DNA of 36,974 bases from Dehalococcoidia bacterium (GTDB lineage Bacteria > Chloroflexota > Dehalococcoidia > UBA2979), in NCBI GenBank assembly GCA_022451865.1, contig JAKUNM010000009.1, positions 1 through 36,974 of the forward strand. The letters are read 5' to 3'. Each line of letters opens with the position of its first letter. Position 1 is the stretch's first letter. A model generated the notes under the pieces. That model had not been told where the DNA came from and ran no database searches. It worked only from the letters and a program-made list of their open reading frames with translations. This document shows, piece by piece, positions 6,608 through 7,055 of this stretch. The position numbers and the translations under genes are program-made.

Positions 6608-6635
6608 TTGACATGTTGTCACAGATAAGTATGAT
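6608..6635 (+). promoter_or_regulatory. Sigma70-type promoter upstream of the c-di-AMP riboswitch
   Basis: TTGACA (6608-6613), 16-nt spacer, TATGAT (6630-6635); predicted start about 30 nt before the aptamer. Confidence 0.55.
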
Positions 6636-6672
6636 CTTGTTAAAACAATCACAACCTAAAAGGTTGTATAGC

Positions 6673-6790
6673 TGCTGAATCTTTGATTATGAATTCATAA
6701 TCGAGATCGGGGGAACCATTAATTGGGGTGAACTCTTTTCAAAGAGCGGGTGTCCTGACAACCCGAACCCGTCAGCTAACCTCGTAAGCA
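6673..6790 (+). promoter_or_regulatory. Cyclic di-AMP riboswitch (ydaO/yuaA leader type)
   Basis: Conserved blocks GATCGGGGGAACCA ... TTGGGGTGAA ... AACCCGAACCCGTCAGCTAACCTCGTAAGC match the remembered ydaO aptamer consensus; outer stem tgct/agca closes the element. Confidence 0.87.
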
Positions 6791-6803
6791 ATTTTCAGGC
6801 CAA

Positions 6804-6838
6804 TTCGGTAATTTTACCGGAGCACTAGATAGGAGTGC
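6804..6838 (+). promoter_or_regulatory. Putative riboswitch expression platform: hairpin TTCGGTAA/TTACCGGA followed by hairpin GCACT/AGTGC that overlaps the Shine-Dalgarno
   Basis: 8-bp stem 6804-6821 (one G-T pair); 5-bp stem 6822-6826/6834-6838 overlapping AGGAG at 6831-6835, ATG at 6843. Confidence 0.45.
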
Positions 6839-6842
6839 AGGC

Positions 6843-7055
6843 ATGATAGTGAGTCAACCACCTAAGAATTGTCCCCGATGTCGTGGTCTCATGTTAATAG
6901 AAGATGATTGGTACGGAAAATTCGGTACATGTATTGCATGTGGTTATGTACATGATAGTGAACGTTGTGATCCCAAAGATATTGAGGAAGAAGAACGTTT
7001 ATTAGCTGGGAAGCAGCGTCGTCGCCAACCATCACATGGAAAACTGCGTTTGTAA
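6843..7055 (+). CDS. Small zinc-ribbon protein with basic C-terminus, unknown function
   Basis: CPRCRGLM...CIACGYVHD (CxxC...CxxC), then RRRQPSHGK tail; RBS aggag; directly downstream of the riboswitch. Confidence 0.85.
   Translation: MIVSQPPKNCPRCRGLMLIEDDWYGKFGTCIACGYVHDSERCDPKDIEEEERLLAGKQRRRQPSHGKLRL

Follow-up and report, generated by a model that had tools for sequence, protein, structure and literature searches.

We identified a c-di-AMP (ydaO/yuaA) riboswitch that was placed directly in front of a gene encoding a small, stand-alone zinc-ribbon protein, and this pairing was kept across many bacterial families. Thus, a known riboswitch class had a new, clade-wide output. In the reading that we favour, and to which we give somewhat better than even chances, the element would act as an OFF switch on this single gene, and the encoded protein would act in trans. 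The window, that is, the whole stretch of DNA that was analysed, comprised 36,974 nucleotides of a Dehalococcoidia bacterium contig, and the following features were located in it:

6608 to 6635, + strand: sigma-70-type promoter-like site, TTGACA-16-TATGAT (consensus match only, 11/12)
6663 to 6805, + strand: c-di-AMP (ydaO/yuaA) riboswitch aptamer (RF00379, 86.5 bits, E 5e-19)
6804 to 6821, + strand: platform hairpin UUCGGUA/UACCGGA directly 3' of the aptamer (predicted fold)
6822 to 6838, + strand: putative Shine-Dalgarno-sequestering hairpin GCACU..AGUGC (predicted fold, function inferred)
6843 to 7055, + strand: gene for a 70-aa C4 zinc-ribbon protein with the conserved basic tail GKQRRRQPSHGKLRL

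The aptamer was the single match that Rfam cmscan returned in the whole window. Its score lay well above the gathering threshold of 38 bits, model positions 1-134 were matched in full and all of the near-invariant blocks were present. The first-pass annotation had described a near-consensus ydaO/yuaA aptamer behind a good promoter, and the covariance model agreed on the aptamer with high significance. The promoter also stood, as a site 5' of the aptamer (TTGACA from 6608, TATGAT ending at 6635) that was in the right position, but sites of this kind were no more numerous here than in shuffled sequences of the region. The interval annotated there, 6608-7055, ran exactly from the promoter to the stop codon. 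The window's own genome (1.40 Mb, 85% complete) contained one RF00379 match only, as did each of two genomes from the same genus. The window aptamer presumably binds c-di-AMP, and the host was predicted to be able to make this molecule from its gene for a diadenylate cyclase (DAC domain PF02457, 137 bits).

In a survey of 45 genomes of the family, RF00379 was present in 41 and the ribbon protein in 40, and a comparison of coordinates placed the ribbon gene directly downstream of an aptamer for all 40 homologues found. At the class level, a profile search gave full-length ribbon matches in 111 of 295 genomes, all scoring at least 79 bits and reaching the last residue; below them there was a clean break, with scores dropping to about 40 bits and alignments that mostly covered the ribbon only. 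RF00379 was found in 127 of the same 295 genomes. Both elements occurred together in 110 genomes, the ribbon alone in one (G186), the riboswitch alone in 17 and neither in 167, these counts being confounded by common descent. A sample of 301 genomes from the phylum yielded no full-length ribbon match outside the class. Moreover, we scanned 85,462 species of GTDB r220, partly seeding the scan with the tail peptide, and examined the best 80 homologues. Their records were named Chloroflexi, Chloroflexota, Dehalococcoidia, Tepidiforma(ceae) or similar, including Tepidiforma flava, and a few stood under loose or bare 'bacterium' names. A strict aptamer core was located just upstream in 69 of these 80 and Rfam added eight more, so that the linkage proposed at the window's locus recurred in 77 of the best 80 homologues as well as throughout the family; L172, L176 and L187 were the three without an upstream aptamer. 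The linkage was absent from family f20, from the sampled members of f50 and from some members of f16 and f25. Since f20 kept the ribbon protein without a riboswitch in front, c-di-AMP control was not obligatory. Two individual cases may be added. Genome G300 had two ribbon copies (L079 and L080), one with a riboswitch and one without, and L111 (genome G014 C223) was a diverged paralogue with the altered tail GEKRQREPSHSFKSL and no riboswitch.

Related genomes share ancestry, and the pairing might therefore be an inherited neighbourhood of no regulatory meaning; alternatively, the aptamer could serve another downstream gene, such as leuB, which lay 154 nt downstream of the ribbon gene in the window. 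We consider this very improbable because the spacing between aptamer and ribbon gene, 37 nt in the window and a few tens of nt in its family, stayed short across many families while the other neighbours changed. Additionally, the core was invariant among 34 ribbon-linked aptamers and their P2 hairpin was kept via compensatory changes, with double-sided changes in 9 of 17 predicted pairs. The predicted control of the ribbon gene by a c-di-AMP riboswitch was thus well supported by these comparisons.

On the other side of the ribbon gene, the window contained divergent cobT/cobU, and cobalamin or leucine genes were often its neighbours within the window's family. No recurrent operon partner was found and the neighbours differed between families, although these calls were rough since a simple ORF caller gave antisense artefacts in high-GC genomes. 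This would fit a product that acts in trans. In line with cobT/cobU in the window, cobalamin/AdoCbl riboswitches were located a few kb from the ribbon gene at L075, L085, L146 and L191.

The region between the aptamer and the start codon was less uniform. In the window and its two congeners it was predicted to fold into two hairpins. The first was the counterpart of a CCGGC..GCCGG hairpin in family members, whose consensus had a compensatory change in one of four pairs, giving it weak support. The second overlapped the Shine-Dalgarno sequence (AGGAG, 6831-6835), and its sequence was identical in both same-genus leaders (L115 and L116). Beyond the window's genus, only a few others showed this second hairpin clearly; many family leaders left the Shine-Dalgarno sequence free in the predicted fold, and across the wider family the platform fold was poorly supported by the consensus. 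Of 75 leaders, 15 had a terminator-like stem followed by a U-run between the aptamer and the start codon; almost all of these were of the Tepidiformaceae type, in which the stem was strong. The position of this element 3' of the aptamer points to c-di-AMP turning the gene off, by termination in one lineage and probably at translation in another. The variation of platforms between families would also be consistent with an ON switch in which high c-di-AMP raises the ribbon protein. It is quite unlikely that this is the case, given the stem and U-run of the Tepidiformaceae and the general behaviour of characterised ydaO-class switches, which repress on ligand; we therefore retain the OFF direction.

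The ribbon gene encoded the 70-aa sequence MIVSQPPKNCPRCRGLMLIEDDWYGKFGTCIACGYVHDSERCDPKDIEEEERLLAGKQRRRQPSHGKLRL, with a single CxxC-x16-CxxC ribbon followed by a basic tail, just as the tiny CxxC...CxxC protein had been described by the first-pass annotation. We judged residue conservation on 43 diverse homologues found with an HMM. The four cysteines (C10, C13, C30 and C33) were invariant, and so were G15, E20, D22, G34 and E50. The C-terminal tail, QRRRQPSHGKLRL, was near-invariant: namely, R59-G66, R69 and L70 did not vary, and Q58, K67 and L68 were nearly constant. An RNA-level cause of this conservation was rejected because synonymous codons varied, with 2-6 of them per tail position, and thus the constraint on the tail acts on the protein. 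Such a tail implies a specific macromolecular partner. The AlphaFold model (mean pLDDT 75) comprised three strands and one short helix, and its confidence was low in the tail. Together, the invariant cysteines and the modelled strands identified a C4 ribbon with two CxxC knuckles, for which zinc binding is predicted.

No Pfam or NCBIfam model claimed the protein, and Foldseek gave no significant fold match (best E 0.12). Many of its few sequence and fold neighbours were transcription-type ribbons (TFIIB, RPB9/RPC10). It shared two CxxC knuckles and weak profile and fold similarity with the TFIIB, RPB9-RPC10 and TFS-type ribbons of PF08271 and PF02150. In contrast to them, it fell below every curated cut-off (19.2 bits for PF08271 with a gathering score of 29; 17.3 bits for PF02150 where 25.2 is needed), and apart from the ribbon and a short helix its 70 residues held only a conserved tail of its own. 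The weak Foldseek resemblances were led by Thermus thermophilus ZifS (TTHA0897, PDB 8yoz), the top hit, together with components of RNA polymerase III, for example RPC10. ZifS is likewise a small stand-alone bacterial zinc finger, but the match reached only that E-value of 0.12, and ZifS was absent from the matches in a profile search of PDB chains. A literature search found no paper on ZifS.

Two other possibilities were rejected. The resemblance of the tail to ribosomal protein bL34 was not beyond chance (when compared with the bL34 of the same genome, the shuffle fraction was 0.37), and a viral origin was dropped as no relatives were found in viral contigs. The matches to LysW carriers were sub-threshold, and the C-terminus was the basic GKLRL, not the acidic carrier motif.

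We hypothesized that the ribbon protein most likely binds nucleic acid or cellular machinery, close to the first-pass annotation, in which it was a putative new c-di-AMP effector with possible nucleic-acid or ribosome binding. It could instead assist osmolyte or cofactor metabolism as a structural or enzymatic accessory, such as a metallochaperone or a LysW-like carrier. Its weak LysW-type and rubredoxin-type matches, the cobalamin or leucine genes that often adjoin it in the window's family and the biosynthetic nature of the genes co-regulated by RF00379 elsewhere would agree with such a function. We hold it to be unlikely, since the neighbours change from family to family and conservation falls on a basic RRR tail, where a carrier would have an acidic C-terminus. 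The binding role is accordingly the one that we carry forward.

The ribbon gene had been proposed as the sole target of the riboswitch. This was true in the window's genus, and the ribbon was the one RF00379 target seen in streamlined genomes (1.1-1.6 Mb). In larger relatives, however, compatible-solute and envelope genes were also located behind RF00379. The other class genes behind RF00379 encoded trehalose-phosphate synthase (OtsA), KamA-family aminomutases, an inositol-phosphate cytidylyltransferase-like protein, a family-5 solute-binding protein, glycosyltransferases and an MFS protein. Judged by their annotated functions, these targets would fit osmoadaptation. KamA-family lysine 2,3-aminomutase-like proteins stood 3' of RF00379 at L205, L215, L220, L226 and L234, which suggests c-di-AMP control of beta-lysine-type osmolytes. 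The inositol-1-phosphate cytidylyltransferase-like protein (L203:788-1666) possibly serves the synthesis of a di-myo-inositol-phosphate osmolyte. Additionally, other small CxxC..CxxC ORFs followed 7 of 45 Chloroflexota aptamers that were not linked to the ribbon family, compared with 0.8% of random positions; the count is small and the surveyed loci were not a random draw. These ORFs were directly behind RF00379 at L217, L221, L222, L223, L224, L225 and L265, and those at L217, L221 and L224, from three class genomes, may represent a second RF00379-led zinc-finger family of the CxxC...C[NG]xCAxxYE type.

The full-length match, the complete set of consensus blocks and the leader position behind a promoter-like site made the window aptamer similar to other members of its class. 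In the literature that we covered, it differed from the described members in its target, since none of these papers mentioned a stand-alone zinc ribbon. The described targets of ydaO-class riboswitches are K+ and amino-acid transporters and osmotic and cell-wall genes (PMC7266159, PMC3766115), and one such riboswitch controls a kdp operon (PMC6488665). Our literature search found no paper joining ydaO/c-di-AMP, riboswitch and zinc ribbon, although an earlier listing in target surveys is possible, and a search for c-di-AMP, riboswitch and Dehalococcoid found only a co-aggregation paper.

In the proposed mechanism, bound c-di-AMP would stabilise the aptamer and thereby allow the platform hairpin to form. 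In the window species this hairpin would hide the ribosome-binding site, and in Tepidiformaceae an intrinsic terminator would take the same position. In better-studied bacteria c-di-AMP falls on osmotic upshift or at low K+. When its level falls, the ribbon protein would be made, and in relatives with several RF00379 riboswitches it would be made together with osmolyte genes. With its ribbon and basic tail, the protein would then most likely bind nucleic acid, RNA polymerase or the ribosome and so act in trans. A more tentative extension, which we rate clearly below even chances, is that the ribbon is a global trans-acting factor (of RNA polymerase, the ribosome or the nucleoid) that relays c-di-AMP across a large Chloroflexota clade.

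The best-known function of c-di-AMP is the control of K+ and osmolyte transport. If the ribbon were such a global factor, the system would be a second-messenger relay, with a regulator under riboswitch control in place of a transporter or an enzyme. Since the pairing was kept across many bacterial families, the ribbon protein is probably a major c-di-AMP responder in uncultured and thermophilic Chloroflexota. Because Tepidiforma is cultured, the role of the ribbon protein in c-di-AMP signalling is directly testable. In a large and mostly uncultured clade, a zinc ribbon of an undescribed family was among the best-conserved targets of c-di-AMP riboswitches.
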